DNA of 64,000 nucleotides. It comes from Candidatus Gastranaerophilales bacterium (GTDB lineage: Bacteria > Cyanobacteriota > Vampirovibrionia > Gastranaerophilales > Gastranaerophilaceae). Below the pieces are notes generated by a model. The model did not search any database. It saw nothing but the letters and a program-made list of their open reading frames with translations, and was not told the origin of the DNA. Location: the NCBI GenBank assembly GCA_944325865.1, contig CALVBS010000005.1:124001-188000 (forward strand), given 5' to 3'. Both the position numbers and the translations under genes were made by a program. Of the stretch, positions 23,167-31,509 are shown in pieces; within the stretch, counting starts at the first letter, position 1; every line of letters begins with the position of its first letter.

Positions 23167-25131
23167 TTATTCTTTTTCTTTTAGAATATTTGCGTATTTT
23201 TCCAGTCTGTCCAAAAGCGGCTGCATTCTCGCATTAATTGTATTTCTAAAATGGTCAACCTCTTTTGGATTTGTATTTAGCTGGTTTACAATCATTCTAT
23301 CCATTTTAGCTCTGACTGCAATCTTCAAAATTTCAGGAAGATTCATTGCAGTAGGTTCATCTGATGATAAATTCTTATAATATGCATCTTCAAAATTTTC
23401 ATTAAGTCGAAGTTTCCAATTAGTACTACACTTCTGCCCACCGTAATTATAAACCTGATTAATTCCAAAAAAGTCCGCAAACGAAATTTGTATCTTATTG
23501 GAACTCATAAATACATCCGCAAATTTTGCTTTCAATCTTTCCATTGGATTACTGATAATTTTTGATTCAAAAGCCTTTCTTTCATTTGTTCTTGCCGGAT
23601 CAGAATTAAGATAGCCGCTAAGATAGTCAAAACTCCAAGTAGGGTCATGCATTTTGCCATCCTCTTTCACATATTTGATACCCGGCAAAGAATCATGGGA
23701 ACCCAAATATGACCAGTTATTACCCTTGTTATCTTGTTCTCTTGCAACTTCTGCTCGTGTATAAGACAATTCTGTTATACCCGAGAGTTTTAGTTTTCCA
23801 TAGAAAAGTTCATCAAATCCCGGAGGATGAGCTCCTAAATCTTCCCAAATAGCATTATCCGGTTCCAGCTCATATTGTTTCATTATCGGAATAATTATTT
23901 TTTCAAGAATTTTCCAATAGTTCCCCTTAGGGTCTAACCCCATATCAGACAAGAATCCGGCATCCAGTTTATTAAGCTCAAGTTTGCCATTTGAATTATA
24001 TGAAACTGTATTTTTGTTATAAACATATGGATTTACCAAACCGAAGACATGATCAATTCTTACATTTTCGCAATCTTGAAGTGCTGATTCCAGTTTTGCA
24101 CGAATAAAGTCACCAGCAGGCCCAAGAGTTCCGTTAGGCTTAAATAGTTTATTCGGATCCGGAACTGGAAAATCCCATAATTGTGGACCATTTGGTCCAG
24201 AAGGACATCCCATCCTCATATCTTTCATAAATGCATCTTTATAAATATATTCTTCAACCTTTGATGTTCCGACAAGCTGATCTGCATTATACTTAAAGCC
24301 GGCTCGTTTACGGAAATCCTTATGTTCTTTCATTTGTTTATTTATTAAAAACTGGGTGAAACAATATAGCCCGATATCTTTTCCGTTACGATTAATTAAG
24401 TACTTATAACGATCAAGGGCTTTAAGATTTCTCTGATCAAGAAGTTCTGGTAAATTTTTATCAATCTCGCTCTCCCACTGTTCAAATTTATCAGTTCCGT
24501 AAATCTGACTCAACGCATTAAACAAACCTTCTTTCATAACCCTCTGCCCATTCTGATTTTTGAATGCACTGTATTCTTTGTTAAGAGCCAGAGCTTTCGG
24601 GTCGTGGGTTCTTACTTTAAGAACAAAATTTTCATAAGCTTCCTCTAGAACTTTGTCATAGTTTTCAAATGCTTCATAAAACTGTGAATAAGTATAATTT
24701 CTGTCCCTATCATTATACTGAACTGCATACTGAGCAAGTTTTTCATCGGAAATCAAATTAGCATATTCATCTGTAGAAAGAGCGTTCAAGTCTATAAATA
24801 ATTTATTTTTTGCCCATACTGTTGAAGCATACGGGGAAATATCCCGTCTTTTAATCTCACCTAACGGTCCGAGTTGAGTAGAGGTAAAACCATGAAGTTT
24901 TTCAAATTCAATTACGTCTTTTGATAAAGCATTGAATGGTGAACCGACTCCCATATCGTTCTTTGATACAGGAAAACAGGTTCCATGCATTATCAAAGAA
25001 ACATCTTTAATCCCCAGAAAATCATATGCCTGACGAATTGTGTCATGCTTATATTCTAATTTTTCATTGTCTCTTAGTTTTCTCTGAAACACCGGAGAAG
25101 TATTGAGAGCTGGTATTTTCATAATCTGCAT
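23167..25131 (-). CDS. malQ: Divergent 4-alpha-glucanotransferase (GH77, MalQ-like)
   Basis: GH77 catalytic motifs are all recognisable in diverged form: VRIDHVFGL with the nucleophile Asp (about 359; MalQ VRIDHFRGF), IWEDLGAHPP with the acid/base Glu (about 429; MalQ AEDLG), and LGSHDSLPG with the third carboxylate (about 478; MalQ GTHDN). An N-terminal GVGSPFNALS and a C-terminal NWKLRL also fit amylomaltases. It transfers maltosyl units between alpha-glucans, probably in glycogen turnover with the GH13 enzyme. The N-terminus holds SPVFQRKL, close to the F-Q-G tag. It is the last gene of the run that starts at bamA, 31 bases after the FlhA-like gene. Confidence 0.85.
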   Translation of the reverse strand: MQIMKIPALNTSPVFQRKLRDNEKLEYKHDTIRQAYDFLGIKDVSLIMHGTCFPVSKNDMGVGSPFNALSKDVIEFEKLHGFTSTQLGPLGEIKRRDISPYASTVWAKNKLFIDLNALSTDEYANLISDEKLAQYAVQYNDRDRNYTYSQFYEAFENYDKVLEEAYENFVLKVRTHDPKALALNKEYSAFKNQNGQRVMKEGLFNALSQIYGTDKFEQWESEIDKNLPELLDQRNLKALDRYKYLINRNGKDIGLYCFTQFLINKQMKEHKDFRKRAGFKYNADQLVGTSKVEEYIYKDAFMKDMRMGCPSGPNGPQLWDFPVPDPNKLFKPNGTLGPAGDFIRAKLESALQDCENVRIDHVFGLVNPYVYNKNTVSYNSNGKLELNKLDAGFLSDMGLDPKGNYWKILEKIIIPIMKQYELEPDNAIWEDLGAHPPGFDELFYGKLKLSGITELSYTRAEVAREQDNKGNNWSYLGSHDSLPGIKYVKEDGKMHDPTWSFDYLSGYLNSDPARTNERKAFESKIISNPMERLKAKFADVFMSSNKIQISFADFFGINQVYNYGGQKCSTNWKLRLNENFEDAYYKNLSSDEPTAMNLPEILKIAVRAKMDRMIVNQLNTNPKEVDHFRNTINARMQPLLDRLEKYANILKEKE

Positions 25132-25162: not shown

Positions 25163-26641
25163 CTATATTTCCGAAATTATTTCTATCGGATAATGACAGC
25201 CTATTTCTTCTCTTGATAAGACTGTTATATCACTCAAATAATTCGAAAGCAAGGTAAAAAATAAATGTCTGTATTCCAGAGGTACAATTAATTTAGGAGA
25301 TTTTATATCATACTGTTTTGATTTTTTAAGAATTTTTGATGCAAGTTTTTCCGCAAAAGCACTGTCTATTCTTACGATGTAATCATCTTCTTCATCTGCA
25401 TCAGGCCCAAATGTATCAAGAGTTTTTTCACTTATTTCAAATGCCGAAATAACACCTTCTGAATTTATATATTTTTTACAAATCTGTCTGCCAAGAGCAA
25501 GTCTTATTCTTTTGATTAAATCTGCTTTTGGAGAGTCAGCCGCATAATCGTTTAATTTTTCAAATATATAGACAATATTTTTAATTGACACATGTTCTCT
25601 GATAAGACTTGTCAAAATATATCGTAAATCTGCAACGGAAATAATATCAGGAATAAGATTTTCCACAAGGAAACTATTTACACTCTCAACAACATCAATA
25701 TATTTTTCAACATCATTGTAATCAAGCAGTTCATCAACATATTTTACAACGGCATGCTCAAGAACAGCCGCAATATATTCAGCTCCTGAAAGACCTTTTT
25801 CCCAGAAATCTTTTGTATCTTTTTTATTCAGCCATATAATCTTTTCACCTGTCACAGCATCTATATCATAAACTGAATCTTTAGGCTTTTTATCAAGATG
25901 AATTTCATCAGCTAAAAATGCAGAATGCTGCGGATATACCATACCTCTAAAAACTTCAAATCCTCTTATTTTAATACTAAATTCATAAGGATTTAATGTT
26001 TCGTCATCTTTAAAAAGAATTTTAGGTATAACATAACCGAGTTCATCAGTAAGTTTCAATCTTGTTTTTACTGTTGCAGCAAGAAGAGACTCTTCTTCAC
26101 TGTCGCTTTCGGAATCAACATATTCAATAAGTTCTTCGCTCAAATTTACTGACAATTTTTCTTCATGTAGTCTTGCAAACATTATATCCGGGGACGTAGC
26201 TCTGGCCAGACTGGATTTTAATTCATCCAGTTCTTTTAATCCCGCGGAAATCTTATCATTTAGTTTCTTTCTCATAACGGAAGCTGGAGCTTCACCTTCA
26301 AGTTCTTTTTTTATTTTTGCAATTTTTTGCTGCTGCATTTTTATTTTAGATTGGATATCCACACAGGTTTCATAAGGTGAAAGTTTTGGAGAAAGCATTT
26401 TTTCCATCTGGCTTTTAAATGTAGAGATATTTATTTCATCACCTTCATCCGAATTTCCCTCAGATTTTGCTTCCGACATAAAAATACAGTTAAAAGTATA
26501 ACCGTCTTCCCCTTCAACTTCATTCATACTGTAAAGTTCCCAGCCGTTCATTGACATTTCATTTAAGAGGTTTTGCAGTTCCTGCACATTTTCGCTGGAA
26601 CAGGTTCTGATAATATACTGCATTTTGTTGTTTCTAAACAT
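25163..26641 (-). CDS. Soluble FlhA/FHIPEP C-terminal-domain protein with DUF4177-like head
   Basis: Residues ~185-492 line up with the cytoplasmic domain of FlhA (flagellar/type III export gate): YVIPKILFKDDETLNPYEFS with IKIRGFEVFRGMVYPQH matches FlhA's x-LQPxxYxIxxKGVEVxxGxxxP; NLIPDIISVADLRYILTSLI and VSIKNIVYIFEKLNDYA match LVPxxVTLxxLxxVLQxLLxExVPIRDMxTILExLA; LIKRIRLALGRQI matches VRxALGRxI; and KLIVPLEYRHLFFTLLSNYL with ITVLSREEI matches the C-terminal LRPxLxRxxxxxxPxLxVLSxxEI. The eight-helix membrane half of FlhA is absent. Residues ~7-56 (LNEMSMNGWELYSMN) resemble DUF4177, and ~92-145 is a charged coiled coil. Start has AAGGGG seven bases upstream. Confidence 0.8.
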   Translation of the reverse strand: MFRNNKMQYIIRTCSSENVQELQNLLNEMSMNGWELYSMNEVEGEDGYTFNCIFMSEAKSEGNSDEGDEINISTFKSQMEKMLSPKLSPYETCVDIQSKIKMQQQKIAKIKKELEGEAPASVMRKKLNDKISAGLKELDELKSSLARATSPDIMFARLHEEKLSVNLSEELIEYVDSESDSEEESLLAATVKTRLKLTDELGYVIPKILFKDDETLNPYEFSIKIRGFEVFRGMVYPQHSAFLADEIHLDKKPKDSVYDIDAVTGEKIIWLNKKDTKDFWEKGLSGAEYIAAVLEHAVVKYVDELLDYNDVEKYIDVVESVNSFLVENLIPDIISVADLRYILTSLIREHVSIKNIVYIFEKLNDYAADSPKADLIKRIRLALGRQICKKYINSEGVISAFEISEKTLDTFGPDADEEDDYIVRIDSAFAEKLASKILKKSKQYDIKSPKLIVPLEYRHLFFTLLSNYLSDITVLSREEIGCHYPIEIISEI

Positions 26642-26652
26642 AATTCCACCCC

Positions 26653-27423
26653 TTATTTTTTGTCATTTTCTATTAATATTTTTAAAGCCTCTATAGCGGT
26701 TTTTATAGCCTTATCAGTATCGTGGACTACCGGATTTTCCAAATTTTGCTTTTCCCTTTCCTGATTGGCAACAGTAAGCAATACAGTACCGGTTCTTGCT
26801 CTCAAGTAAGAAGACACAATAAACAAAGCTGCTGATTCCATTTCAGAAGCCAAACAGCCCATTCTTTTCCACGCTTCCCATTTATTTAAAAGTTCAGTCG
26901 AAACAGGCATTCTTTCCGGACAATGCTGGCCGTAGAAAGAATCTTTACACTGAACAACTCCTGTATGGTATTCATAATGAAGATTTTCAGCGGCAGCAAC
27001 CAGAGCATTCGTAACAGTAAAATCAGCAACTGCCGGATATTCAATCGGAGCGTATTCTTTGGAAGTTCCCTCCATTCTGACGGCACCGGTTGCAATAACA
27101 ACATCACCGCCTTTTACATTGAGTTCCATTCCGCCGCAAGTTCCAACCCTAATAAAAGTATCCGCACCTATATTTTTCAATTCTTCCATTGCAATAGAAG
27201 CAGAAGGCCCGCCGATACCGGTTGAGGTTACACTTACCTTTTCCCCGTTAAGGTATCCGGTGTAAGTAGTAAATTCTCGTCTGTCAGCAACCATAACCGG
27301 ATTTTCAAAATATTCAGCAATTTTTTTACAGCGTTTTGGATCCCCGGGAAGAATAACATATCTCCCGACATCACCTTCAGACAGTCCTATATGATACTGT
27401 TCGCCATGCTCTGAATAATTCAT
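26653..27423 (-). CDS. udp: Uridine phosphorylase (nucleoside phosphorylase family)
   Basis: Splits uridine with phosphate to uracil and ribose-1-phosphate. The phosphate-binding [38 protein letters not shown]-type loop, and the nucleoside-binding [11 protein letters not shown] (Glu-Met-Glu motif) are in place, and the overall order matches E. coli Udp more than MTA/SAH nucleosidase. 256 residues is normal. It lies 13 bases after ompH and 11 before the FlhA-like gene, an unusual place for a salvage enzyme. Confidence 0.93.
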
Positions 27424-27436
27424 TATTTAAATACCT

Positions 27437-27892
27437 CTATTGTCCGCTTTTCAACTTTTGTATAACCAAATCGGAAATATCCACACCGCCGACAAATACA
27501 ACTCTAAAATCAAGAATAGCATCTAACTTTTGTTCAACAAGAACCTGTTTTGCTGCAGCCTGAATTTTATTAAACACAAGTTCTTCTTTCTCTGATTTTA
27601 ATCTTAAATAAGCTTCTTGTTTAGCATTAAATTCACGTGCCGTAGCATCTTCAAAGTTTTGCTTTTTCAACGGAGTATCAAGAGCTTTGTATTGTTTTTC
27701 CTTGTCAACCATATACTGTTGCAGTTCAAGAGCCTTTGCATCCACCTCTTTAACAGCTTGTTGAGCTAACGGATATGCAGCCTGAACTTTTTGATAGTCA
27801 ATATATCCGACACCACCGGCAAAAGCCTGACTTGTGAGAGATAATACTGTTGCACAGAACAATGTCATTGCAGCAATTTTAAATTTTTTCAT
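27437..27892 (-). CDS. OmpH/Skp-like periplasmic chaperone
   Basis: A signal peptide (MKKFKIAAMTLFCATVLSLT, cleaved near AFA-GG) precedes GVGYIDYQKVQAAYPLAQQ, the usual start of the OmpH domain, then a long coiled-coil hairpin and a short C-terminal strand region. Skp holds unfolded outer membrane proteins in the periplasm and hands them to BamA, whose gene is 19 bases upstream. 151 residues fits the family. Confidence 0.9.
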   Translation of the reverse strand: MKKFKIAAMTLFCATVLSLTSQAFAGGVGYIDYQKVQAAYPLAQQAVKEVDAKALELQQYMVDKEKQYKALDTPLKKQNFEDATAREFNAKQEAYLRLKSEKEELVFNKIQAAAKQVLVEQKLDAILDFRVVFVGGVDISDLVIQKLKSGQ

Positions 27893-27911
27893 AAGAAATC
27901 CTCCATTATTA

Positions 27912-29831
27912 CTAATATACTAAATCACCTACACCAAAAGTAAAGTAACCGTGGTCAGGACCGTTATCACCCGCATTTGTAAGAGGGAAACCGTAATCGA
28001 TAGACAGAGGTCCCATTCCAGGAATATAAAGTTTCAAACCGATACCCATTGATACTGCATATCCAGGTCTGTCATACAGAGTATCTGCAATAGTCGGATT
28101 GAAAATTTTACCGGCATCAGCCCATACGGTAAACCTGATGTTATTCAGGAAGTTAACCTTTTTAGCAAGTTTTGTTCTGTCAAGGAACGGTATAGGCGTT
28201 GCGAATTCGGCAGAACCCATGATAAAGGCATCACCGGTACCGACACCGCTCATCTTGAACCCTCTGATTGTATAAGGACCGCCTAAACGATAAGCCATGA
28301 CATCAGGCATATTGTCCCCGTGGATTTTTCCGCCACCACGTGCCATAAATGACAGAGATGATTTTTTACCAATCGGAATGTAATGTTTGATTGTACCCGA
28401 TAATTTACCATGAGTTTTATCAAAGTCAATTAAACCGAGTTCTTCAGAAAATCTAACACTTGCAATGGTACCTTTTCGGGTTACAATTCCTGAATCTCTT
28501 GAGTCATAAATCAACGCAGGACTCAAAGACATAAACAAACCGCCGTCTAACTGTTTTGCACGTTCCGATATAGGCACCCCGTATCTTTCAAACATAGATG
28601 CAATTTTATTAAAGTCACCCTCTCTAACATCAATATGTTCAACACCAAGCGAGAAGGTCGAAGTAAGGTGTTTGTTTTTTTTCATCCTGTGTGCAACGGT
28701 AGCTTCACCGCCGAATCGTCTTTCAATAGCCAGAGGAACCTGATAACTTCCAAAATCTCTAAAGAATAACTTAGCCATCAATGACGTATCCGCATTAAGG
28801 AAATGAGGTTCAAAGAAACTCAGTTCAGCCTGCATATTCACGCGTCGTTTAATTGAAGCATCATTAAGAATAACACCTGAACCGACCAAACCGTTCAATG
28901 AAACTCTCTGATTTCTTCCGCGGAAGTTATTATCTGCAATACCGACCGAGCCGAACACACCGGTTACAGAATCCAAACCACCACCGACAGAAATATTGGC
29001 GGTTCGCTGTTCTTGAACATTGATTGTTACATCATACAAATCAGGGTCTTCCGCTGTCGGTTCAATTTCTCTGGTAACATCTTTAAATGCCTGTGTAGCA
29101 TAAAGTCTTACCAAATCTTCTTTAATCTGGTTTTCATTATATACACTGCCCGGTTCTGTCATGATATTTCGTGCAATAATAAAATCTTTCGTTTTTTCAT
29201 TACCGGAAATAGCAATGGAATTAACAACACCCTCTTTAATTTTTATATTAATTGTCCCGTCAGGATCATCCGAAACAGATTCAACTCTGGAGAGAATATA
29301 GCCTTTTGAATTATAAATATCTTGAATCTGTGCTATAGCCTGATTAAGCTGGGCAATATTCTGAGGCTTACCTTTCATATCCATTAAGGTATTCAAAATT
29401 TCTTCGGTAGAAACCACAGTGTTACCTTCAATAGTAAAGTCTGTAACCGGAGAATTTTCTTCAAGAATAAGTTTTAAGGTAACGGTTCCGTCAGGATTAT
29501 TAACAGGCAACGCTCTCATTTTTTCCGTAAAATAACCCATTTGATAAATTGTTCTCAAATCGTTTTGAACTATATTTCTGTCAAACTTATCTCCTTTTTT
29601 CAGAGACAACTTTTCTAGAACCGTTTCGGGGCTTATAACATTAAGCCCATGAACTTCAATATCTTTAATAACACGTTCTGCTTTTTCCGGAGTTTCTTCT
29701 CCTGCCGCCTGCATCATTTTTTCTGCCGCAGAATCGTCCGAATAGAAGTCATCTGCACAGAACCCTCTCAACGGAAATATTACAGCTATCAGTAAAGGCA
29801 GTATTAATTTATAAAGATTATTGTTTTTCAA
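27912..29831 (-). CDS. bamA: Outer membrane assembly factor BamA/Omp85 with three POTRA domains
   Basis: After a signal peptide, three POTRA repeats are readable: VIKDIEVHGLNVISPETV (about 55-130), VTDFTIEGNTVVSTEEIL (about 132-205) and VNSIAISGNEKTKDFII (about 206-280). Three is the cyanobacterial number; E. coli BamA has five. The beta-barrel follows from about residue 285, with the GIADNNFRGRNQRVS strand and the loop-6 motif GPYTIRGF (IRGF for VRGF/Y). The C-terminal strand ends FTFGVGDLVY, an aromatic end as expected. It inserts barrel proteins into the outer membrane and is followed by skp. Confidence 0.95.
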   Translation of the reverse strand: MKNNNLYKLILPLLIAVIFPLRGFCADDFYSDDSAAEKMMQAAGEETPEKAERVIKDIEVHGLNVISPETVLEKLSLKKGDKFDRNIVQNDLRTIYQMGYFTEKMRALPVNNPDGTVTLKLILEENSPVTDFTIEGNTVVSTEEILNTLMDMKGKPQNIAQLNQAIAQIQDIYNSKGYILSRVESVSDDPDGTINIKIKEGVVNSIAISGNEKTKDFIIARNIMTEPGSVYNENQIKEDLVRLYATQAFKDVTREIEPTAEDPDLYDVTINVQEQRTANISVGGGLDSVTGVFGSVGIADNNFRGRNQRVSLNGLVGSGVILNDASIKRRVNMQAELSFFEPHFLNADTSLMAKLFFRDFGSYQVPLAIERRFGGEATVAHRMKKNKHLTSTFSLGVEHIDVREGDFNKIASMFERYGVPISERAKQLDGGLFMSLSPALIYDSRDSGIVTRKGTIASVRFSEELGLIDFDKTHGKLSGTIKHYIPIGKKSSLSFMARGGGKIHGDNMPDVMAYRLGGPYTIRGFKMSGVGTGDAFIMGSAEFATPIPFLDRTKLAKKVNFLNNIRFTVWADAGKIFNPTIADTLYDRPGYAVSMGIGLKLYIPGMGPLSIDYGFPLTNAGDNGPDHGYFTFGVGDLVY

Positions 29832-30762: not shown

Positions 30763-31509
30763 CTACGGCAGACATTCCCAGTACCCCTTTGTGCCGTCCC
30801 ACGGGCAGGTATCGGATATTGCATAACTTGCACAGGTTGCTCCGTTGATATCAGAGTTACTTGTTTTAGAACATTTGTTTGCGGTTTCCGCTGTATTATT
30901 GTAATTACAGTTACCCTCTTCGTCACATGAAACTTCTGATTCTCTGTTTGCCGGAACAAGTTTTTCTGTGTCTTTCCATGCAACAAAAATAAAAATATCG
31001 TGCCCCAAAGCATTCGGACCTTTTTTTATCCCGTTAGTATCTATCGTAAACCACAAGCCGTTGCAGTTTTGAAAAATTGATAATGCACTGCCGTCAGGTG
31101 TAATGAATGCTCCATCACCTGCCATATATTGAGAACATTGTGGTATTCCCATAGGGCTTTTTTTGGTAAAATTTTTAGCTGAATTTTTATATTCATTCCG
31201 TTCTTTATCTGAAATTTGTTTTAATTTTTTATACTTTGAGTAAATTTGTTGTGCAAATTCTGAATTTGTATCGACACCGCCGTCAGGTCTGTCTTCTGTA
31301 GGATTTAATACATAGACAGGATAACCCTCTGCTATTACCTGATTAAAAGCATTATACAGGTTTGAATACGCTTTTTTGAACGCAACTTCAAGTGACTTTG
31401 CATTATTCTTTTGAATTAATGCAGGCAAAGTCATTGCCGCGACCACACCGATTATTCCTAATGTTATTAGCACTTCAGCAAGAGTAAATGCTTTGGAAAT
31501 TTTATCCAT
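30763..31509 (-). CDS. Type IV pilin-like protein (prepilin N-terminal methylation site)
   Basis: The N-terminus MDKISKAFTLAEVLITLGII is a class III signal: a short basic leader, then the F/E-containing hydrophobic helix cleaved by prepilin peptidase before Phe. The remaining ~215 residues form a soluble head with several Cys pairs (GIPQCSQYM, FQNCNGLWF, SCDEEGNCNYN) and a Cys-rich tail ending GATCASYAISDTCPW...YWECLP. A GGAGG site precedes the ATG. It is divergent from an XRE regulator whose putative operator lies between them. Its tail is duplicated at 39374-39553. Likely an exported pseudopilin or minor pilin; no pilus assembly genes are in the window. Confidence 0.85.
   Translation of the reverse strand: MDKISKAFTLAEVLITLGIIGVVAAMTLPALIQKNNAKSLEVAFKKAYSNLYNAFNQVIAEGYPVYVLNPTEDRPDGGVDTNSEFAQQIYSKYKKLKQISDKERNEYKNSAKNFTKKSPMGIPQCSQYMAGDGAFITPDGSALSIFQNCNGLWFTIDTNGIKKGPNALGHDIFIFVAWKDTEKLVPANRESEVSCDEEGNCNYNNTAETANKCSKTSNSDINGATCASYAISDTCPWDGTKGYWECLP

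Follow-up and report, generated by a model that had tools for sequence, protein, structure and literature searches.

Introduction

FlhA and SctV are described in the literature as full membrane proteins whose cytoplasmic domains form a homo-nonameric ring. In Salmonella FlhA, residues D456, F459 and T490 make up the chaperone-binding dimple (PMC8166844), and the GYXLI motif acts as a switch for domain motion (PMC9431611). A report on non-flagellated Chlamydia describes orthologues of flagellar FliI, FlhA and FliF and interactions of the FlhA cytoplasmic domain with other parts (PMC2830194). In 2013, two flhA genes were listed among 13 flagellar genes common to four Melainabacteria genomes (PMC3787301). 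No paper naming both FHIPEP and DUF4177 was found in the open-access literature.

Here we describe a free-standing FlhA cytoplasmic domain protein of 492 amino acids, labelled SOL, which is encoded in a window of 64,000 nucleotides (the whole stretch analysed, positions 124,001 to 188,000 of contig CALVBS010000005.1) from a Candidatus Gastranaerophilales bacterium. When SOL is compared with the C-terminal half of FlhA (FlhA-C; PF00771, structures 3MIX and 3A5I), the four subdomains align end to end, whereas the membrane domain is absent from SOL, the linker differs, a new head and coiled coil are present, and F459, T490 and Gly368 are not kept. The cytoplasmic domain of the injectisome proteins SctV/YscV/CdsV belongs to the same family, but is more distant from SOL than FlhA is, and the export system of the source genome differs from an injectisome in having flagellum-type FliE, FliF with its C-terminal part, FliH, FliMN and FliO. 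Chlamydia resembles the present case in that flagellar export parts are retained without a flagellum, and differs in that the abstract of that report mentions a single FlhA orthologue with its cytoplasmic domain and no soluble second copy (PMC2830194). DUF4177 (PF13783) and Sp36 represent a small domain, and the SOL head aligns weakly to both, with a conserved GW(E/D)(L/I)Y motif, although these matches lie under the cut-offs and in SOL the domain is fused to FlhA-C. One of the two Melainabacteria flhA genes reported in 2013 may be SOL.

SOL is an intact FlhA cytoplasmic domain lacking the membrane half

The SOL gene (25163..26641, minus strand) was defined from its ORF translation, its profile matches and its full-length relatives in the order, and the translation yields 492 amino acids with no internal stop. 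In Pfam, positions 316-653 of the 657 positions of FHIPEP (PF00771) aligned to SOL residues 146-481 (E 6.6e-49; 167.4 bits, passing the cut-off of 29.1 bits), and as the match begins at profile position 316, the N-terminal membrane domain (profile ~1-315) is missing. SOL matched the FlhA model TIGR01398 with 154.5 bits (E 3.4e-45) and the SctV model TIGR01399 with 86.4 bits (E 1.5e-24), falling short of both equivalog thresholds (772 bits for a full FlhA, 692 bits for SctV). The B. subtilis FlhA-C structure 3mix aligned to residues 137-489 (E 9e-26). Together, Pfam, 3mix and the alignment of functional sites place the FlhA/FHIPEP cytoplasmic domain, D1-D4, at residues 147-492 (25166..26203, minus strand), and the D3 motif LIREHVSIKNIVYIFEKLND is retained at residues 346-365, as are R391, G399, D456 and W465 (numbered as in E. 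coli FlhA). The transmembrane scan found no transmembrane-like stretch in SOL, the best 19-residue window reaching 1.42, below the usual threshold, compared with up to 3.0 in the FlhA of the second flagellum-type export system (system 2; described below); 5 of 38 SOL relatives had a 19-residue window over the threshold. The whole-protein structure model was poor (mean pLDDT 53, built with seven close sequences) and was left out as fold evidence. It is well supported that SOL is an intact soluble paralogue of the FlhA cytoplasmic ring domain without the membrane half; a reading made earlier from the sequence alone had claimed a whole FlhA cytoplasmic domain of this kind, and the PF00771 match and the transmembrane scan bear it out.

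The head of SOL (residues 1-58; 26468..26641, minus strand) was delimited as a DUF4177/Sp36-like region from weak profile matches, structure prediction and conservation. Its predicted topology is beta-alpha-beta-beta (mean pLDDT 73), and all 37 relatives compared share L26, N27, M29, Y37, E41 and F54, with W34 and C52 conserved in 36 of the 37. The head is the least-changed part of SOL, and is unchanged with respect to the nearest relative (dN 0, dS 1.36). Against DUF4177 it scored 14.1 bits, under the Pfam cut-off of 25. Counting matches at E up to 1, DUF4177 was touched by 12 of 21 SOL family members (best E 0.002) and NCBIfam Sp36 by 18 of 21 (best E 5e-5), so that a link to either, below cut-off singly and recurrent across the family, is weakly suggested. 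The head had no sequence match in the PDB, and no significant hit came from a fold search with it (best E 0.24). For the head, a real part of SOL with strong conservation, no confident homologue of known function was found; the DUF4177-like head of the sequence-only reading stands as a domain, and its named similarity falls short of the cut-off (14 versus 25 bits).

Between the head and the FlhA-like domain lie an acidic linker and a predicted helical hairpin or coiled coil (residues 59-146; 26204..26467, minus strand), drawn from prediction and conservation. Helices are predicted at residues 89-114 and 122-148 (pLDDT 76-79), and C93, K111 and N128 are conserved. Fourteen of the 37 most conserved positions across 37 relatives are located in the head or the hairpin, namely L26, N27, M29, W34, L36, Y37, E41, C52, F54, Y90, C93, K111, L127 and N128.

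SOL is found across the order and derives from the system-2 FlhA lineage

A protein search found SOL relatives in 116 of 117 Gastranaerophilales genomes, nearly always at full length and with identities of 36-91% within the order; the remaining genome, G028, is a bin of 83% completeness in which the best match resembles FlhA. In a class-wide search, every genome of the order that was listed, except G134, gave a SOL match of E 1e-146 or better. The closest named relatives are from Candidatus Scatousia and Gastranaerophilales MAGs, and SOL is under purifying selection, with a dN/dS of 0.054 versus the closest relative. The class search gave no clear case of SOL outside the order, where the matches were full-length FlhA or headless free FHIPEP domains; beyond the phylum, the coverage was a single pattern-based scan that took in genome contigs, plasmids, phages and the PDB. 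A viral origin of SOL was set aside, as no relative was found in viral contigs. Separately, two unannotated "bacteriophage" records (MT835480.1 24296-25213 and MT835847.1 4770-5669) carry FlhA-like sequence at 24-27% identity, and may be bacterial contigs.

The near-complete genome G134 has system 2 and no SOL, and other orders have system-2-type FlhA without SOL, indicating that SOL is not essential to system 2. Conversely, G045 (rated 99% complete) has SOL and FliP, and full-length FHIPEP is missing from its assembly. Since the genomes are mostly metagenome assemblies, single absences such as those in G134, G045 and G121 carry little weight.

Phylogenies of the cytoplasmic domain recovered SOL as monophyletic (100/100) and grouped it with the system-2 FlhA both of its own order and of families f9, f14 and f15. 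A constraint joining SOL to motility FlhA was rejected (AU p 6.6e-6), ruling out motility FlhA as its source, while a constraint joining SOL to the order's own system-2 FlhA was not rejected (p 0.11); SOL has a long branch in these trees, and its placement among the system-2 sequences is approximate. The trees give good support to the reading that SOL descends from the system-2 FlhA lineage. SOL would have arisen once, before the order diversified, as a copy of the C-terminal domain of system-2 FlhA, and would have gained the DUF4177-like head and the coiled coil where the membrane half had been.

A second flagellum-type export system and other free FHIPEP domains

The full-length FHIPEP protein of the source genome (G000:C4:181501-183477, 731 bits) belongs to a system-2 cluster with the order fliE, fliF, X, fliH and flhA. 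FliE, FliF and FliH of this system were confirmed by Pfam, as were FliMN and FliO elsewhere in the genome; fliP adjoins the FliMN/FliO genes, and fliQ and fliR are placed there by sequence reading. The gene set (fliE-fliF-X-fliH-flhA; fliM/N, O, P, Q, R) is located at G000:C4:181501-183477, L040 1-4561 and L099 13082-16688. X is a protein of 358 amino acids with no Pfam matches that occupies the fliG position, and it cannot be called FliG from its sequence. Another 13 genomes of the order have X upstream of flhA, and BLAST did not find it in two genomes of other orders. The full-length system-2 FlhA, the descent of SOL from its lineage and the further free FHIPEP domains were seen only from the wider genome sequence.

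Flagellin was not found in the source genome nor in seven others tested, and six of those tested have it. The sequence-only reading had suggested scanning related genomes for flagellar or type III genes; SOL was also found in flagellin-less genomes, and FliP in 13 of 13 order genomes tested. Flagellated genera have an additional, higher-scoring FlhA and, where tested, mostly a second FliP; one genome, G094, has flagellin and a single FliP. Near the system-2 cluster, L040 6371-7897 encodes a 508-residue protein starting MGMAASQARYLGLTARKTNVEYEGQQ, which from its position alone is possibly an export substrate. Several prepilin-like proteins that start like FTLAEVLITLGIIGVVAA are scattered (window 30763-31509; L039 and L100).

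Besides SOL, the FHIPEP cytoplasmic domain has been set free several more times in the order and the phylum. In two genera, an X N-terminal domain and a transmembrane stretch are fused to FHIPEP-C (L251 5893-7977 and L252 5222-7306; L190 6042-7823 and L202 5707-7494); the X domain of the g13 fusion (694 amino acids) matched with E 1e-62 to 1e-64, and that of the g10 fusion (~595 amino acids) with E 3e-18 and 7e-17 (BLAST 1e-9 and 1e-10). In a sister order, system-2 flhA is immediately followed by a FHIPEP-C gene of 289 residues (L185 5998-6867). The order also has small FHIPEP-C proteins of ~210-340 amino acids without D2 and most of D4 (L186, L188, L189, L191-L196 and L199-L201), of which G096 has several copies, as well as larger free FHIPEP proteins with other N-termini, and other classes of the phylum have free FHIPEP domains of 323-369 amino acids without the head of SOL. 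The fusions to X and the gene adjacent to flhA tie free FHIPEP domains to the system-2 basal body, and such a link is probable, the fusions themselves not being SOL. Adjacent pairs of FHIPEP-derived genes also occur in another class of the phylum (L247 33-2140 and L248 6651-9577), and in one such pair one member has a membrane-like N-terminal half.

Candidate roles of SOL

We infer, with moderate confidence, that SOL, as a soluble protein, assists or regulates the system-2 export gate, and that its head and coiled coil bind an order-specific partner. SOL would dock beside, mix into or cap the cytoplasmic ring of system-2 FlhA, and access of substrate or of the ATPase stalk would be regulated at this gate; the FlhA-like domain would meet the ring or ring partners, leaving the head and coiled coil to take the order-specific partner. 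The origin of SOL in system 2, its co-occurrence with that system, its position ahead of fliJ-fliK-flgD-flgE in one genus, and the free domains fused to or located beside system-2 parts support a role at the gate. The neighbours of SOL, which are mostly non-export genes, count against it, as do G134, G045, the other orders with system-2-type FlhA and no SOL, and the lack of a confident homologue for the head.

It is unlikely, in our view, that SOL is instead a cytosolic chaperone or substrate adaptor or a decoy, binding chaperone-substrate complexes and ferrying or sequestering them, as had been raised from the sequence alone. Chaperone docking takes place on this part of FlhA (PMC8166844), SOL is without a membrane anchor, and D456 (E. 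coli FlhA numbering) is kept in 37 of 38 SOL relatives. However, in the 38 relatives position 459 is mostly T or S and position 490 mostly R, K or E, whereas system-2 FlhA retains Y or F at 459 and Thr at 490, and has equivalents of all three dimple residues. Gly368 of GYXLI, also retained in system-2 FlhA, is Ser in 36 of 38 relatives, and the Arg370 slot holds an invariant Glu in SOL. Judged from these residues, the chaperone dimple is mostly lost in SOL, and the loss of two of its three residues and of Gly368 makes an export-chaperone decoy less likely.

Somewhat more doubtful is the re-use of the ring domain in a process other than type III export, such as envelope biogenesis, which had been suggested by the gene order bamA-skp-udp-SOL-malQ. 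This order is as claimed, with gaps of 11 bases between udp and SOL and 31 bases between SOL and malQ: on the minus strand, bamA and skp (27437..29831) start the likely transcript, udp (26653..27423) is located upstream of SOL in the likely operon, and malQ (23167..25131) follows downstream. On this strand, the stretch from udp through SOL to malQ is free of terminator-like hairpins, and one comes after malQ (23140-23108); the sole terminator-like site between bamA and malQ (28247-28227, minus strand) lies within bamA. The order bamA-skp-(udp or another gene)-SOL favors envelope re-use and is restricted to part of one family. In other families, SOL is located elsewhere with varying neighbours that are mostly unrelated to export, which again fits a use outside it, but the architecture of SOL is unchanged there without bamA and skp. 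The descent of SOL from system 2, its co-occurrence with it, and the sister free domains fused to or beside system-2 parts also argue against re-use. The link to envelope biogenesis is weak, given the restriction of the bamA-skp-udp-malQ arrangement to a single family, and bamA-skp as a conserved operon with SOL is ruled out past that family.

A role of SOL as a factor of the motility flagellum is improbable: two species of a single genus carry SOL upstream of fliJ-fliK-flgD-flgE, but SOL is present in flagellin-less genomes, the source genome included, and does not group with motility FlhA in the tree. Finally, SOL aligns to no more than the C-terminal half of FlhA, but the readings that it is the remnant of a broken flhA, or arose from misassembly or misannotation, are ruled out by the intact full-length relatives with the same head order-wide, by another, full-length FlhA in the source genome, by a dN/dS of 0.05 and by the lack of an internal stop, in agreement with the earlier claim of an intact gene.

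Beyond the role of SOL as an accessory of the system-2 gate, we raise a wider proposal tentatively and with some doubt: in non-photosynthetic cyanobacteria, the ring of this gate may not be a plain FlhA homomer, and soluble or basal-body-anchored paralogues, SOL order-wide and others by lineage, may form mixed or stacked rings that set export cargo and timing. If this is true, more than one gene would be able to supply, or to control, an FlhA ring. SOL is a conserved soluble ring-domain protein found across a whole order, and it is accompanied by naturally occurring fusion proteins in which this domain is anchored to a component of the basal body. A flagellum-type export system appears to be widely kept in gut bacteria that lack flagellin, and SOL, X and the fusions may offer a handle on its cargo and purpose.
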